From Variovorax paradoxus (GTDB lineage Bacteria; Pseudomonadota; Gammaproteobacteria; Burkholderiales; Burkholderiaceae_C): a stretch of DNA of 64,000 nt. Under the pieces are notes generated by a model. That model made no database searches. It was not told where the DNA came from and worked only from the letters and a program-made list of their open reading frames with translations. Numbering within the stretch: the first letter of the stretch is position 1; every line of letters starts with the position of its first letter. This document shows positions 13,898 to 19,381 of this stretch, piece by piece. The stretch covers positions 4,142,501-4,206,500 of the forward strand of contig NZ_JAUSXL010000002.1 of the NCBI RefSeq assembly GCF_030815975.1, written 5' to 3'. Made by a program: the position numbers and the translations under genes.

Positions 13898-14374
13898 ATG
13901 ATCTCAGTTCATTTTCACGGCCAGCGCTTTCAGGTGCGTGCCGCCGCGGTCATCCTTCATGCGGGCTGCGCGCTTCTTCACCGGGCTCCGGGCGACGACT
14001 ACTGGGCCTTGCCGGGCGGCAGGGTCGAGGTGGGCGAAGAGGCATCGGCGACGATCGTCCGGGAGATGAGGGAGGAGCTTGGCGAAGAAGTCGAATGCGG
14101 CCGGCTTCTCCACGTGGCGGAGAATTTTTTCGACCTTGCGGGCCGGCGCAACCATGAGATCGGGTTCTACTTTCTCGTCTCGCTGGCCGAGGACTCGGGC
14201 CATCTCGACAAGACGCGAACCTACCGGGGCATCGAAAGCCACCTGGATCTGGAATTTCGCTGGTTCCCCGTCGCGGAGCTTGCGTCCGTCAATCTGAGGC
14301 CGACATTTCTCCCGGCCTCGCTGGCGGCCGATCCGCTGGTGTTTTCGCACGCGGTTCAGCGCGAATACCAATGA
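13898..14374 (+). CDS. Nudix hydrolase
   Basis: The 158-aa protein holds one Nudix domain. The Nudix box GX5EX7REUXEEXGU is intact, running from GGRVEVGEE to REMREELGEEV at about residues 43-68. Such enzymes hydrolyse nucleoside diphosphates linked to another group; the substrate cannot be told. It heads a tight three-gene run, overlapping the next gene by ATGA. It is divergent from tag with only about 65 bp between starts, or overlapping promoters if the longer tag start is used. Confidence 0.9.
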   Translation: MISVHFHGQRFQVRAAAVILHAGCALLHRAPGDDYWALPGGRVEVGEEASATIVREMREELGEEVECGRLLHVAENFFDLAGRRNHEIGFYFLVSLAEDSGHLDKTRTYRGIESHLDLEFRWFPVAELASVNLRPTFLPASLAADPLVFSHAVQREYQ

Positions 14375-14598
14375 CTGGCGAGCGCTACCTGTTCAATGTG
14401 TTCGGCCAGGTCATGGCCATTGAAAGAGCCGGGGACCGCTGGGAGAGCTATTTGATGGGGCCCGATGGCAAGCGCCGCAGGATCCAGCTGGCAATTCCAT
14501 CCGACCTCACGCGCGGCGAGCTTGCCCAGTATCTCTACGACATCTATCACGAGCAGGCGACGCCGACGAACGGCGATGTCTTCGAGATCTTCCAATGA
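14371..14598 (+). CDS. 75-aa conserved protein (DUF7661-like)
   Basis: The 75-aa protein reads as a short beta-rich domain (YLFNVFGQVMAIERAGDRW, then SYLMGPDGKRRR). A helix ELAQYLYDIYHEQATP follows and the chain ends in VFEIFQ. This matches a small family of unknown function that I recall as DUF7661; that assignment is tentative. It overlaps both neighbours by ATGA, so it is translated with the Nudix hydrolase and the DUF2867 remnant. There is no signal peptide or membrane segment, so it is probably cytosolic. Confidence 0.75.
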   Translation: MTGERYLFNVFGQVMAIERAGDRWESYLMGPDGKRRRIQLAIPSDLTRGELAQYLYDIYHEQATPTNGDVFEIFQ

Positions 14599-15131
14599 AA
14601 AACAGCCATCGATTGCACAAGTCCCGCCGCGAGGCGCTGCCCTCCGGCGCGCGCGTGGCCGGCCTTTATCACGGCGCCTTCCTGGCCGACGCCTTCGCCA
14701 TCGACCTGCCGCAGGGCGCCACCCGCGACGTGCTGGCGCTTGCGCGCTTTGCGTTCGAGCGTCCCGCCCCCTGAGTCAACAGGCTGTTGGCGCTGCGCGA
14801 CGGGCTGGTCGGCGGCTTGGGCCTCAAGACGGCCAGCGCGCTGCGCGCCGCCGGTACCCGGGGCGGTGCGCCGCGCATCGGCTTCTTTCGCATCTACGAG
14901 ACGCATGCGGACGAGGTCGTGCTCGGCGAGGACGACCGGCACCTGGATTTCCGCGTTTCGGTAATGCGTTCCGTGGCGGGGGATTCGCTCACGGCCGTCA
15001 CGGTGGTGCACTGCCATAACCTCTTCGGCCGCAACTACATCCGGTTGATCGCGCCGTTCCATCGGCTGGTGGTGCGTTCGGCACTCGAACGCGCGGCGCG
15101 CTCGGGCTGGCCCACGGAAGTGGCGGCCTGA
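14595..15131 (+). pseudogene. DUF2867 protein interrupted by an in-frame TGA
   Basis: From the ATG at 14595 (overlapping the previous stop as ATGA), the frame reads KNSHRLHKSRREALPSGARV and continues to FERPAP. TGA then follows at 14772-14774 (codon 60). The same frame continues without further stops to 15131: VNRLLALRDGLVGGLGLKTAS, then the DUF2867 core HLDFRVSVMRS and VTVVHCHNLFGRNYI. In DUF2867 proteins a Trp usually stands where the TGA is (PxWVxxLLxLRD), so a TGG-to-TGA change is the simplest explanation. Unless read through or restarted, the product is a 59-residue fragment. A base-call error is possible. Confidence 0.8.
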
Positions 15132-15252
15132 ACGGAACGCCTCGTTACCGCTTGGAACGTTTGCTTGAACTTTCTCTCCCGGCAGGCGCACAGGGACGGG
15201 AAGGCCAGCGGGAGTTGCCAGTGTAGACTGCCAGGTTTTTCGTTCTGGCGGT

Positions 15253-15957
15253 ATGGCGCAAGTTTCACAGCGCACAGTTTTCAACGGCTCGGCGCTTGTT
15301 CGCTTGCTCTCTCGACTGACCGACATCGGCGTCCGCGAACCCAGGCAGGCCACCGCGGATCGATTGAGTCAATGGTTCGGCTGGACCGATGCCATCTCGC
15401 TGTCCGCGGCGCTCGATGGTGCTTCGGCGGCAGCGCCTTCACGCGTACGAGCTTCCGCGAGCGCCGAGGAGCGCGAATGCGTCCGTGCGCGCGCAGCGTT
15501 GGCAAAGGCCGTGGCCGAAGACGGCGCTGTCGCGGCAGCCGTTGACTTCACGCCGTTTCGCCGCCGCCATCTCACGCTGCAACAGGCCATGGAAGCGGGC
15601 ATCGGCCCGTTGCGCGGCCGTTTGCGGGCGCTGCTGGCGGCCAGGTCGCCCGCCATGGCCCGGCTTGCCGCCGTGGACGTGGTGATGGAGCAGGTGCTGG
15701 CTGCGCGCGAGCACAGCTTGCTCGGGGCCGTGCCCGCGCTGCTCGAAAAGCATTTCACGCGCCTGCGCCAGGACAGCCTCGAGGGCCTGGAGACGGCGGG
15801 CGAACCCGACAACAGCGAGGCTCAGGCCGGAGAGTGGCTGCATGTGTTCCGCAAGGACATGAAGAACGTGCTGCTCGCCGAACTGGACTTCCGATTTCAA
15901 CCGATCGAAGGGCTGCTCGAAGCCCTTCGCATGAGGCAACCAGAGTGCCATGAATAG
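15253..15957 (+). CDS. DUF3348 protein, first gene of the motor-like operon
   Basis: The 234-aa soluble protein is largely helical, with no signal peptide or membrane helix. It fits DUF3348, a family of unknown function found with DUF802, OmpA and DUF2894 genes in Betaproteobacteria. Notable stretches are NGSALVRLLSRLTDIG near the start, VDFTPFRRRHLTLQQAMEAG in the middle and WLHVFRKDMKNVLLAELDFRFQP near the end. The LSQWFGWTDAI segment is tryptophan-rich. Its stop overlaps the start of the DUF802 gene (ATGAATAG). The role is presumably cytoplasmic and tied to the channel encoded next; this is inference from context. Confidence 0.85.
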   Translation: MAQVSQRTVFNGSALVRLLSRLTDIGVREPRQATADRLSQWFGWTDAISLSAALDGASAAAPSRVRASASAEERECVRARAALAKAVAEDGAVAAAVDFTPFRRRHLTLQQAMEAGIGPLRGRLRALLAARSPAMARLAAVDVVMEQVLAAREHSLLGAVPALLEKHFTRLRQDSLEGLETAGEPDNSEAQAGEWLHVFRKDMKNVLLAELDFRFQPIEGLLEALRMRQPECHE

Positions 15958-18040
15958 ATTTCTTCACTACGCCGTTTTTGCCGCGGGCCTGGCCGTCGTG
16001 TGCTGGGTCGGGGCCGGATACGTCGGCTCGCACACCCTGGCGCTCGCCGTCACGATGCTGGTCGGCGCGTTCTACCTGATGGGGGCGCTGGAACTGCATC
16101 GCTTCCAGCAGGCCACCTCCACCTTGACGCGTGCCGTGGCGGATCTTTCCGAGCCTCCGGCGAGCCTGGGCGCCTGGCTCGACCGGCTGCATCCGACGCT
16201 GCGCAACGCGGTGCGCCTTCGCATCGAAGGCGAGCGCGTGGGCCTGCCGGGCCCGGCACTCACGCCGTACCTGGCCGGACTGCTGGTGCTGCTGGGCATG
16301 CTGGGCACCTTCCTCGGCATGGTGGTCACGCTGAACGGCACCGGCATGGCGCTGGAAAGCGCGACCGACCTGCCGGCCATCCGCGCCTCGCTGTCGGCGC
16401 CTGTGAAGGGCCTGGGGCTGGCATTCGGCACGTCGGTGGCCGGCGTGGCTGCCTCCGCGATGCTAGGGCTGGCCTCGGCCTTGTGCCGGCGCGAACGGCT
16501 GCAAGCGGGCCAGATGCTCGACAGCAGAATCGCAACCACGCTGCGCGCCTACTCGCTGGCCCACCAGCGCGAGGCGTCGTTTCAACTGCTCGAGCAGCAG
16601 GCCCACCAGATGCCCCGGCTGGTCGACCAGCTGCAGGCCATGATGGCGGCGATGGAGCGGCAGAGCCAGGCCTTGAATGAGCGCCTCGCCACCGGCCAGG
16701 CGCAGTTCCACACCAAGGCCGAGGCCGTGTATGCCGGCCTGGCTTCCTCGGTCGACCAGTCGCTCAAGCAGAGCCTGAGCGAAAGCGCCCGCATCGCCGG
16801 CGCGACGATCCAGCCGGTGGTCGAAGCCACCATGGCGGGCATCGCGCGCGAGACGGCCTCCCTGCACGACACGGTGGCGCGCACCGTGCAGCAGCAGCTC
16901 GATGGTCTCTCGAGCCGCTTCGAGGCCGCCACCGCGAGCGTGGCAGGCACCTGGCTGGCTGCGCTGGCCGAGCACCAGCGCACCTCCGAGGCGTTGTCCA
17001 TGGATCTGCGTGCTTCGCATGACCGCTTTGCCGAGACCTTCGAGCAGCGGTCGGCATCGCTGGTGGAGGGCGTGTCCGCACACCTTGAAAAGACGGCAGG
17101 CAGCGTGTCGGAGACCTGGGGCAGCGCGCTCGCGCAGCACCAGCGCGTCAGCGAGAAACTGTCGCAGGATGCGCAGCAGTCGCTCGCGGCGGCAGCGGCC
17201 GGCTTCGAGCAGCACTCGGCATCGCTCTTGCGCACGGTGGAACAGGCGCATGCCACGCTGCAGGCCGACATCGCATCGCGCGACGAACAGCGGCTGTCGG
17301 CCTGGACGCAAGCGCTGGCCGCGGTGTCCGCATCGCTGCAGCAGCAGTGGCAGCAGGCGGGTGCCCACACGGCGGGCCAGCAGCAGCAGCTCTTCGAAGC
17401 GCTTGCGCAGACCGCGCGCGATATGTCCACCCAGGCCGAGGCCCACGCGAAGAACACGGTCGGCGAGATTGCCCGGCTGCTGCAGGCCGCATCGGAAGCG
17501 CCGCGGGTCGCGGCCGAAGTGGTGGCCGAGCTGCGCCAGAAACTTTCCGACAGCATGGCGCGCGACAACGCGATGCTGGAAGAACGCAGCCGCATCATGG
17601 AAACGCTGGGAACCCTGCTCGACGCGGTGAACCACGCCTCCACCGAACAGCGCTCGGCGGTCGATGCGCTGGTGGGTGCATCGGCGGACGTGCTGGACCG
17701 CGTGGGCAGCCGCTTCACCGAGAAGGTCGATGAGGAAACCGGAAAGATGGCCGCGGTCGCCGCGCAGATCACCGGCAGCGCCGTCGAAGTGGCCAGCCTT
17801 GGCGAGGCCTTCGGCTTTGCGGTGCAGCTGTTCAGCGAATCGAACGACAAGCTGGTGGCCCACCTGCAGCGCGTCGAAGGCGCACTGGGCAAATCGATCG
17901 CGCGCAGCGACGAGCAGCTGGCCTACTACGTGGCGCAGGCAAGAGAAGTCATCGACCTGAGCATCATGTCGCAGAAGCAGATCGTCGAAGACCTGCAGCA
18001 GATCGCGAGCCGGCAGGCCGCGGTGGGCAGCGAGGCGTGA
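15950..18040 (+). CDS. DUF802 protein: MotA/TolQ/ZorA-like channel with long coiled-coil tail
   Basis: The 696-aa protein has four predicted membrane helices at about residues 5-25, 28-48, 106-128 and 153-176. The third (LLVLLGMLGTFLGMVVTLNG) and fourth (GLGLAFGTSVAGVAASAML) carry the glycine/threonine pattern of the MotA/TolQ/ExbB proton-channel helices. From about residue 180 to the end the chain is an almost unbroken Ala/Gln/Glu-rich coiled coil of some 500 residues, with DUF802-like repeats (about 330-430). This plan, a MotA core plus a very long cytoplasmic tail, is that of ZorA. It overlaps the OmpA gene by one base (TGATG). A cell-envelope motor or tethering role is inferred. Confidence 0.85.
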   Translation: MNRFLHYAVFAAGLAVVCWVGAGYVGSHTLALAVTMLVGAFYLMGALELHRFQQATSTLTRAVADLSEPPASLGAWLDRLHPTLRNAVRLRIEGERVGLPGPALTPYLAGLLVLLGMLGTFLGMVVTLNGTGMALESATDLPAIRASLSAPVKGLGLAFGTSVAGVAASAMLGLASALCRRERLQAGQMLDSRIATTLRAYSLAHQREASFQLLEQQAHQMPRLVDQLQAMMAAMERQSQALNERLATGQAQFHTKAEAVYAGLASSVDQSLKQSLSESARIAGATIQPVVEATMAGIARETASLHDTVARTVQQQLDGLSSRFEAATASVAGTWLAALAEHQRTSEALSMDLRASHDRFAETFEQRSASLVEGVSAHLEKTAGSVSETWGSALAQHQRVSEKLSQDAQQSLAAAAAGFEQHSASLLRTVEQAHATLQADIASRDEQRLSAWTQALAAVSASLQQQWQQAGAHTAGQQQQLFEALAQTARDMSTQAEAHAKNTVGEIARLLQAASEAPRVAAEVVAELRQKLSDSMARDNAMLEERSRIMETLGTLLDAVNHASTEQRSAVDALVGASADVLDRVGSRFTEKVDEETGKMAAVAAQITGSAVEVASLGEAFGFAVQLFSESNDKLVAHLQRVEGALGKSIARSDEQLAYYVAQAREVIDLSIMSQKQIVEDLQQIASRQAAVGSEA

Positions 18041-18696
18041 TGCGGGACGATCTCGACGCCGGCCTGGAGCCGAGCGTGCCGGTGTGGGCGGTCTTCGGCG
18101 ACCTGATGTCGGGGCTGGTGGGGGCCTTCGTGCTGATTCTGGTGGGCGCGCTTGGCATGCAACTGGACCTGGCGGCCAAGCTGCAGGCCGAAGTGCAGCA
18201 GCGCCAGGCCGAGACGCAGCGCCGCGAGGCGCTCGAGCAAGCGCTGGCCGGGCCGCTCGCTGCCGGCCGCGTCACGCTGAACAACGGGCGCATCGGCATC
18301 AGCGGCAGCGTGCTGTTCGCCTTCAACTCGGCCGACCTGCAGCCCGAGGGCCGGCAAGTGCTCAAGAGCCTGGCCGCGCCGGTGGCCACTTATCTGCGGT
18401 CCCGCGACGAGGTGCTGATGGTGAGCGGCTTCACCGACGATCGGCAGATGCGGCAGCCGAAGGACGGCAACCGGCCGTTCGCGGACAACTGGGAGCTCTC
18501 GGCCCAGCGAGCCTTGACGGTGACCCGCGCATTGATCGAGGAGGGCGTTCCTTCGTCATCGGTGTTTGCCGCGGCTTTCGGTTCCGAGCAGGCCGTGGCG
18601 TCCAATGCCGACGCCGAAGGACGGGCGAAGAACCGGCGTGTCGAGATGGCGCCCACGCCGAGGCAGGCTGGCGCCGGCACCAAGTCTCGTGGGTAG
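18040..18696 (+). CDS. OmpA/MotB/ZorB-like peptidoglycan-binding stator protein
   Basis: The 218-aa protein has one N-terminal membrane helix (about residues 16-42), FGDLMSGLVGAFVLILVGAL, with an aspartate at residue 21. That is where MotB and ZorB carry the proton-accepting acid. A short coiled coil (50-75) leads to a C-terminal OmpA domain (about 90-205). It contains FNSADLQPEG, VSGFTDDR, NWELSAQRA and GRAKNRRVEM, which bind peptidoglycan in the family. A GTG three bases upstream (18037) is an alternative start. With the DUF802 protein it should form the two-subunit channel; its last codons overlap the DUF2894 gene. Confidence 0.88.
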   Translation: MRDDLDAGLEPSVPVWAVFGDLMSGLVGAFVLILVGALGMQLDLAAKLQAEVQQRQAETQRREALEQALAGPLAAGRVTLNNGRIGISGSVLFAFNSADLQPEGRQVLKSLAAPVATYLRSRDEVLMVSGFTDDRQMRQPKDGNRPFADNWELSAQRALTVTRALIEEGVPSSSVFAAAFGSEQAVASNADAEGRAKNRRVEMAPTPRQAGAGTKSRG

Positions 18697-19351
18697 CAGC
18701 AGCACGGACCCCGCCGGGGTGCTCGACGCATGGCGCGTGCGGGGCGAGCATCGCCGGGATCCCGTGCGCTTTCGGTTCATCGAGGTGCTCGCCAGGAGGG
18801 CCAGTGCCCATGAGGGCGATGCGCGGCGCATCCTCGATGACAGGCTGGCCACGCTGCTTGCGGCGTTTCGCGAAAATCTCGAAAAGGCCCCGTGCGCTGA
18901 CAGTGCTTCGGCCGTTCCAGATGGCAGCGCGAAACAGGCGGCCCCGCTTCCTCGCGGGCCGCTGGCGGAGCTCGTCGAGCACATGGCGCGGCAGGCGTCG
19001 CCGCAAGGCGATGAGAGTGCGGCGGCCGACAATGCCGCATCCGCCACCCCCGAACTCAGGACCCTGCGCTACTTCAGAAGCACCTGGTCGCGGCTCAGCG
19101 CCGACCGGCGGCTGACGCAGTCACTGGCCAAGGTGCCGGAGAATGCGGGCCCGCTCAACTCGCATCACCTGGTGCACCGGTCCCTCATGCTGATGCACGA
19201 GCTGTCGCCCGAATATCTCAACCGGTTCATGTCGTACGTCGACACCCTGCTGTGGGTCGATCAGCTGAACGGCAGCAATGCCCCGGCGGCCACTGCGAAT
19301 GCGCCGCGCGCCGAAGGCCAGAAGAAAACGTCGCGCGGCAAATCCGGCTGA
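18689..19351 (+). CDS. DUF2894 protein, fourth gene of the motor-like operon
   Basis: The 220-aa soluble protein belongs to DUF2894 (unknown function). I chose the GTG at 18689, which overlaps the OmpA stop; no ATG lies between it and the conserved start of the domain (VLDAWRVRGEHRRDPVRF). A variable linker (about 70-115) separates the N-terminal part from a conserved C-terminal block RTLRYFRSTWSRLSADRRL and SPEYLNRFMSYVDTLLWVDQL. The tail is Lys/Arg-rich. Its overlap with the OmpA-like gene implies co-translation. The likely place is the cytoplasm, with the motor complex (inference). Confidence 0.82.
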   Translation: MGSSSTDPAGVLDAWRVRGEHRRDPVRFRFIEVLARRASAHEGDARRILDDRLATLLAAFRENLEKAPCADSASAVPDGSAKQAAPLPRGPLAELVEHMARQASPQGDESAAADNAASATPELRTLRYFRSTWSRLSADRRLTQSLAKVPENAGPLNSHHLVHRSLMLMHELSPEYLNRFMSYVDTLLWVDQLNGSNAPAATANAPRAEGQKKTSRGKSG

Positions 19352-19381
19352 TTCCCGCTTGTCCCGCTGCTTGCGCAGCGG

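Follow-up and report, generated by a model that had tools for sequence, protein, structure and literature searches.

Among the Zorya anti-phage systems, types I and II are those covered by the structures and tests of Mariano et al. (2025), who also list type III; according to the available part of that paper, ZorA and ZorB of types I and II form a 5:2 complex, and ion flux, the ZorA tail and peptidoglycan binding by ZorB are important (PMC11890865). Type III was named by Payne et al. (2021) from 6,401 loci; the accessible part of their report describes that the four-gene system of Stenotrophomonas nitritireducens DSM 12575 lowers the plaquing of at least one phage in E. coli, and proposes that ZorF and ZorG regulate ZorAB (PMC8565338). 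Partial texts further state that in Burkholderia cenocepacia the leading one or two genes of Zorya III are transcribed differently on infection (PMC12584637) and list a Variovorax strain with type III (PMC11953036). Our literature search, confined to papers outside subscription, retrieved neither a mechanism for type III nor a report of its near-universal occurrence in any genus. Here we analyze a four-gene operon within 64,000 nucleotides of Variovorax paradoxus DNA (contig NZ_JAUSXL010000002.1, positions 4,142,501 to 4,206,500; hereafter the window). This operon almost certainly encodes Zorya type III, a membrane motor against phages that has been described before. What our searches indicate to be new is that nearly all Variovorax species sampled carry it once, at genomic sites that differ, a pattern uncommon among defence systems.

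All four proteins strongly match the PADLOC-DB models of Zorya type III. The DUF3348 protein encoded by gene 1 corresponds to ZorG3 (PDLC00658, 1.5e-88), the gene 2 product to four ZorA3 models at 1008-1212 bits (top 1211.7), the gene 3 product to ZorB3 (1.6e-111) and the DUF2894 protein of gene 4 to ZorF3 (PDLC00652, 6.9e-81). Pfam profiles concur, with matches to DUF3348 (6.6e-79), DUF802 (9.7e-29), OmpA (1.5e-19) and DUF2894 (6e-64) in genes 1 to 4. Models of the other types matched more weakly (ZorA1/ZorA2 at 9.4e-11 and 4e-7; ZorB1/ZorB2 at 1.1e-17 and 8.3e-9), and scores of gene 2 against the NCBIfam models ZorA_1, ZorA_2 and ZorA_4 lay under their cut-offs. The zorAB pair is flanked by DUF3348 and DUF2894 genes, as is characteristic of type III, and nothing was found that places the operon outside this family. 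The letters F and G are used in opposite senses in the field: PADLOC-DB calls DUF3348 ZorG3 and DUF2894 ZorF3, whereas in the available part of Payne et al. DUF3348 is ZorF and DUF2894 is ZorG (PMC8565338). A first-pass annotation, made from the sequence by a model, had read the operon as a ZorAB-type motor, and the ZorA3 and ZorB3 matches bear this out. Its description of the system as uncharacterised with two unknown partners, DUF3348 and DUF2894 substituting for the soluble partners of Zorya, has to be withdrawn: DUF3348, zorAB and DUF2894 together are the published definition of type III, and both partners have PADLOC-DB models of their own within it. The two partners are thereby identified, and a known system is no longer counted as new.

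The four genes overlap start to stop, as the same annotation had noted. Genes 1 and 2 overlap via ATGAATAG, the stop of gene 2 and the ATG of gene 3 are combined in TGATG at 18038-18042, and translation of gene 4 probably starts at a GTG within the 3' end of zorB (Table 1). A scan for promoters and terminators gave no match. Gene order, on one strand, is identical in 110/110 complete loci, representing 105 distinct four-protein sets, and likewise in 6/6 distant loci at class level. These 110 loci, with all four open reading frames (ORFs) complete, come from 120 fetched; of the remaining ten, eight are truncated at a contig end or have no clean ORF, and two (L043, L044) match weakly and have no zor genes. 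The arrangement is thus conserved far beyond chance, and purifying selection acts on each of the four genes, with ratios of nonsynonymous to synonymous substitution rates in eight comparisons with close relatives of 0.04-0.15 for ZorB, 0.09-0.23 for ZorA, 0.14-0.31 for DUF3348 and 0.21-0.36 for DUF2894. ZorB has its closest named relatives in Variovorax, with 98% identity to V. paradoxus NBRC 15149, and the only DUF3348 match in the source genome is gene 1 of the operon. Several irregular zor loci (L017/L055, L047/L091, L105, L113 and L124) show long intergenic gaps or short ORFs, possibly through decay or assembly faults.

By profiles and hydropathy, ZorA3 is a MotA/ExbB/TolQ-like channel subunit with about four hydrophobic membrane segments and a long cytoplasmic tail, as expected of type III; the long coiled-coil tail noted by the first-pass annotation is recovered as a helical stretch of ~490 residues. 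Conservation along the protein was scored in 106 distinct ZorA, where 127 columns are conserved at ≥95%. Such columns are frequent in residues 1-206 (58/206), sparser in residues 207-289 (11/83), nearly absent from residues 290-499 and frequent again in the tail tip (Table 1). ZorA thus has two conserved parts, the motor and the tip, with a variable spacer (residues 290-499) between them. Overall, it shows a periodicity of 11 residues, the highest mean lags being 22, 11, 55 and 33. A period of 11 residues is typical of hendecad helical coils.

ZorA3 proteins are between 595 and 1229 aa long, most commonly 696 or 697 (26/104 distinct proteins, the irregular L113 and L124 being excluded). Internal repetition scores reach at least 100 in 84/104 proteins, comprising 52/54 of those longer than 705 aa and 32/50 of the shorter ones; since so many shorter proteins pass, this threshold alone does not separate long from short. 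The best self-similarity lags among the 84 are 55 (35 proteins, weak), 87 (14), 95 (9), 131 (4), 62 (4) and 116 (3). All 14 proteins with lag 87 exceed 705 aa and have some of the strongest repeats; Variovorax ZorA of 785/786, 876 and 962 residues hold the 87-residue unit about two, three and four times. Different units occur in the remaining long forms, for example 116 residues in a 928-residue form and 98 in a 789-residue form. At the DNA level, zorA of L084 carries a 261-bp unit in 3.9 copies with 86% matches, and no tandem array of this type is found in zorA3 of the window. Judging from these repeats, the spacer has been lengthened by tandem duplication in the longer forms (for example L084, L114 and L094). 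Counting a W motif gave no usable measure of repeats, the count being unrelated to ZorA length (r 0.10), and the self-similarity lags were preferred.

ZorB3 is MotB-like, with one membrane segment (residues 22-40 by hydropathy), a conserved membrane Asp and an OmpA-type peptidoglycan-binding domain, the combination expected of type III, and it scores 371 bits against NCBIfam PRK09040.1 (cut-off 194). Asp21 and the OmpA domain had both been pointed out from the sequence, and variation at residue 21 across homologs had been named as an observation that would count against a motor; instead, the residue is invariant (Table 1) in a conserved setting, with P14 in 104, W16 in 105, F19 in 105 and G20 in 103 of the 105 ZorB proteins. 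In the structures of types I and II, the corresponding Asp (D24 and D21) packs against a Ser/Thr ring of ZorA, according to the available part of PMC11890865. The resemblance of the OmpA domain to MotB domains (3khn, 5.9e-14) could be taken to mean that the pair is a flagellar-type or Tol/Ton-type stator for ordinary motility or outer-membrane function. We regard this as highly improbable: among the 25 of 41 NCBIfam families listed, flagellar MotB, MotD and MotS stay far under their cut-offs, ZorB3 reaching 89.9 (MotD), 60.1 and 42.5 (MotB) bits where MotB/MotD models demand 283, 300 and 277. Moreover, three annotated neighborhoods of about ten genes each hold no flagellar or tol genes, and the DUF3348/DUF2894 cassette is constant.

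Table 1 Positions of the zor operon, its parts and its surrounding interval in the window
Feature	Position	Strand	Remarks
Gene 1, DUF3348 protein	15253-15957	+	234 aa
Gene 2, zorA3	15950-18040	+	696 aa
Variable ZorA3 spacer, residues 290-499	16817-17446	+	2/210 columns conserved ≥95%; 11-residue periodicity
Conserved ZorA3 tail tip, residues 500-696	17447-18037	+	56/197 columns conserved ≥95%
Gene 3, zorB3	18040-18696	+	218 aa from ATG 18040; GTG one codon upstream
Asp21 codon of ZorB3 (WAVFGDLMSG)	18100-18102	+	Asp in 105/105 distinct ZorB, window's included
OmpA-type peptidoglycan-binding domain of ZorB3, residues 92-199	18313-18636	+	Pfam
Gene 4, DUF2894 protein	18689-19351	+	220 aa from GTG 18689
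Interval between 3-methyladenine glycosylase gene and cbpM	13900-19381		5.5 kb; NUDIX, DUF2867, zor cassette

The distribution of the system is core-like in three genera and that of a rare gene across the order. DUF3348 is present in 97/100 Variovorax genomes and in 84/86 of the high-quality ones (window's genome counted), and a strong ZorB3 match (E ≤ 2.3e-105) occurs in 95/100, one per genome. Three ZorB3-negative genomes, G011, G068 and G049, are 62%, 58% and 88% complete, and G049 and G068 carry DUF3348; the nearly complete G046 and G080 have neither ZorB3 nor DUF3348 and seem truly to be without the system. Two other genera, which flanks in common with named loci suggest to be Paraburkholderia and Achromobacter, carry DUF3348 in 71/77 and 41/43 genomes. 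All three genera were picked because a member carried the system, and are uninformative on the typical genus. The proposal that the cluster is widespread in Burkholderiales is only partly borne out, with DUF3348 in only 56/200 genomes of a family sample and 18/300 of an order sample (window's genome counted in each; 17 of the 18 over the Pfam cut-off, and two weak matches without zor genes nearby), and in 8/369 genomes of a class sample. Collectively, these counts show a system that is near-fixed in the three genera sampled, rare in the order and not universal.

The first-pass annotation had cautioned that a core function was as likely as defence, and this gains weight because presence in the three genera is near-universal and mostly single-copy. 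ZorAB could accordingly be a housekeeping envelope motor, serving cell wall or cytoplasmic organization in certain proteobacterial genera, and the protection against phage in E. coli could be a by-product of over-expression. In the same 100 Variovorax genomes it is as common as the chaperone modulator CbpM (97) and far commoner than the type I restriction protein HsdM (22 over cut-off, 57 when every match at E ≤ 0.001 is counted) or ZorE (8, all weak and partial matches to the one model searched), and its prevalence in the other two genera points the same way. No phage record among 50,697 has a match with 80% ZorB query coverage (five partial OmpA-type matches were seen), and of 72,556 plasmid records only 27 contain ZorB, the 20 that were listed measuring 0.7-3.5 Mb. 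Yet seven of these 27 records are typed as mobilizable (20 as non-mobilizable), 144/200 genomes of the family sample do without the system, which is hence dispensable there, and phage protection is on record in the accessible part of PMC8565338. An envelope housekeeping role is a serious rival to immunity, even if we rate it as somewhat unlikely. V. paradoxus VAI-C (L011/L192, CP063167.1) carries the cassette on its second replicon, which is 2.48 Mb in size and labelled as a plasmid.

A housekeeping role also has to accommodate that the cassette changes site and that its tree conflicts with RpoB in places. In the window, cbpM is the right-hand neighbor of the zor cassette, and zor is absent from this place in 20/20 cbpM neighborhoods of other Variovorax, chosen from genomes that carry zor elsewhere. 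The glycosylase gene and cbpM nearly abut in three of the 20 (19-51 bp between alignment ends), lie 0.6 kb apart in one and 1.9-4.3 kb apart in seven; nine have no glycosylase gene in the stretch. When the 110 loci were compared with the window, a few genomes being counted twice, eight had the same flanks, and the remaining Variovorax loci fell into groups of 8, 7, 4 and smaller, with many singletons. Differing sites and zor-free cbpM neighborhoods together argue that the cassette has been relocated within the genus as a unit, by insertion here or departure there. No tRNA adjoins the cassette as an integration mark in any of the 20 loci scanned (L008-L027). Across 23 Variovorax, zor and RpoB distances correlate loosely (Spearman 0.51, with 3/1000 permutations as high). 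Clean vertical descent is rejected in part, as the zor data conflict with the RpoB groupings G061+G089 (RpoB support 79; p 6.7e-51) and G037+G066 (support 93; p 4.8e-5); the grouping G025+G034 (support 100) is not rejected (p 0.249). RpoB being weakly resolved and the groups having been picked after viewing both trees, from which G056 is absent for want of a full RpoB match, these conflicts are indications only. The distribution is thus surprising in combining housekeeping-like persistence with the site mobility of an accessory cassette.

With family membership, the invariance of Asp21, the tail design and the distribution established in the present analysis, a mechanism can be proposed that beyond the motor core rests on analogy. 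ZorA3 and ZorB3 would form an inner-membrane ion-driven motor with the 5:2 composition of types I and II, held to the peptidoglycan through ZorB. When the envelope is disturbed, for example by phage injection, ion flow past Asp21 would be unlocked and the ZorA tail shifted relative to ZorB, and the helical spacer would transmit this movement into the cytoplasm to the conserved tip. There, the soluble helical ZorF and ZorG (DUF2894 and DUF3348) may dock as adaptors or regulators, either keeping the motor shut until needed or coupling it to a host effector encoded outside the operon. Hydropathy detects no membrane segment in either of the two proteins, and AlphaFold2 models DUF3348 as all-helical (mean pLDDT 83) and DUF2894 as loose helices (mean pLDDT 74, pTM 0.40). 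Neither has a solved relative by sequence search or by Foldseek at E ≤ 0.001. In Variovorax, the whole would act as standing core-genome immunity, not as an accessory island system. We consider this motor-lever reading probable, if by no wide measure; within it, the docking at the tip, the adaptor role and immunity in this host are inferred.

A variant makes the motor itself the effector: ZorF and ZorG would act as gates, and activation would depolarize the membrane and stop the cell without any nuclease. A nuclease-like family or fold is recognized in neither partner, and the regulation of ZorAB by ZorF and ZorG proposed by Payne et al. (PMC8565338, available part) agrees with gating; in types I and II, however, DNA-acting effectors are proposed to be recruited and ZorE nicks DNA (PMC11890865, available part), and no such measurement for type III was found. 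Such a pore-type abortive system is possible but, in our estimate, doubtful.

Returning to the motor-lever with adaptors or regulators as standing immunity, several observations weigh against it. Pfam, solved relatives and Foldseek reveal no catalytic domain or fold in either partner, so that the step that kills the cell or blocks the phage is unexplained. In B. cenocepacia K56-2, knockdown by CRISPR interference of predicted defence systems including Zorya III had no fitness effect with one phage (PMC12584637, accessible part), although a negative result with a single phage is weak evidence; a phage test of a Variovorax copy did not turn up in the literature searched. The three-genus distribution is core-like rather than patchy. 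At the window locus, moreover, the cassette is not in a defence island: of ten neighbors scanned with PADLOC, a NUDIX protein was the sole match. In view of the published protection assay with the Stenotrophomonas system in E. coli, we nevertheless rank immunity first among the possible functions.

The genes around the cassette are mostly metabolic or housekeeping in the three annotated neighborhoods. The NUDIX protein (13898-14374) matches PADLOC candidate PDC-S07 at 5.6e-11, probably via the common NUDIX fold. The DUF2867 gene upstream of the operon (14376-15131) contains a stop at 14772-14774, and its Pfam match starts at profile position 42; it is likely a pseudogene or has a late start. 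Between NUDIX and DUF2867, a short ORF (14377-14598) ending in GDVFEIFQ resembles a small protein gene.

For the Zorya field, these observations mean that the two partners of type III show no recognizable catalytic fold, that its lever varies in length by tandem duplication, and that the system is near-fixed in three genera. PADLOC-based defence counts in Variovorax consequently include a nearly constant Zorya III item, and the same probably applies to Achromobacter and Paraburkholderia. The question raised is whether a defence system has turned into a core gene or a housekeeping motor has been labelled as defence. A more far-reaching reading would make Zorya type III no accessory immune island but a genus-core, single-copy envelope motor with an evolvable lever, its helical 11-residue-repeat spacer changing length in steps (mostly of ~87, in some lineages of ~131 or 116 residues), together with structural or regulatory, non-nuclease partners; resistance would then be mechanical or electrochemical instead of based on DNA cutting, and possibly an outgrowth of a cell-wall function. 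Taken jointly, we hold these propositions to be rather improbable and offer them tentatively.

Compared with known systems, the operon resembles the flagellar stators MotAB and PomAB in the membrane Asp of its B subunit and in the OmpA-type peptidoglycan domain, and is unlike them in the ~490-residue tail of its A subunit. With Zorya types I (ZorABCD) and II (ZorABE) it shares a tailed ZorA, the membrane Asp of ZorB and the peptidoglycan-binding domain, with weak sequence matches, and it differs from them in having no helicase or HNH nuclease partner by Pfam and PADLOC. The one ZorE model searched, the HNH nuclease of type II, has no match in the window's genome; as to type I, the operon partners match only the ZorF3 and ZorG3 models and not ZorC or ZorD, a comparison made within the operon and not genome-wide. 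Within each of types I and II, component sizes are described as well conserved (PMC11890865, available part), whereas ZorA3 varies over the range given above. With Zorya type III as described by Payne et al. (2021) and modelled in PADLOC as ZorA3, ZorB3, ZorF3 and ZorG3, the operon agrees in all four genes, in the DUF3348 and DUF2894 genes flanking zorAB, and in its MotA/MotB-like core.

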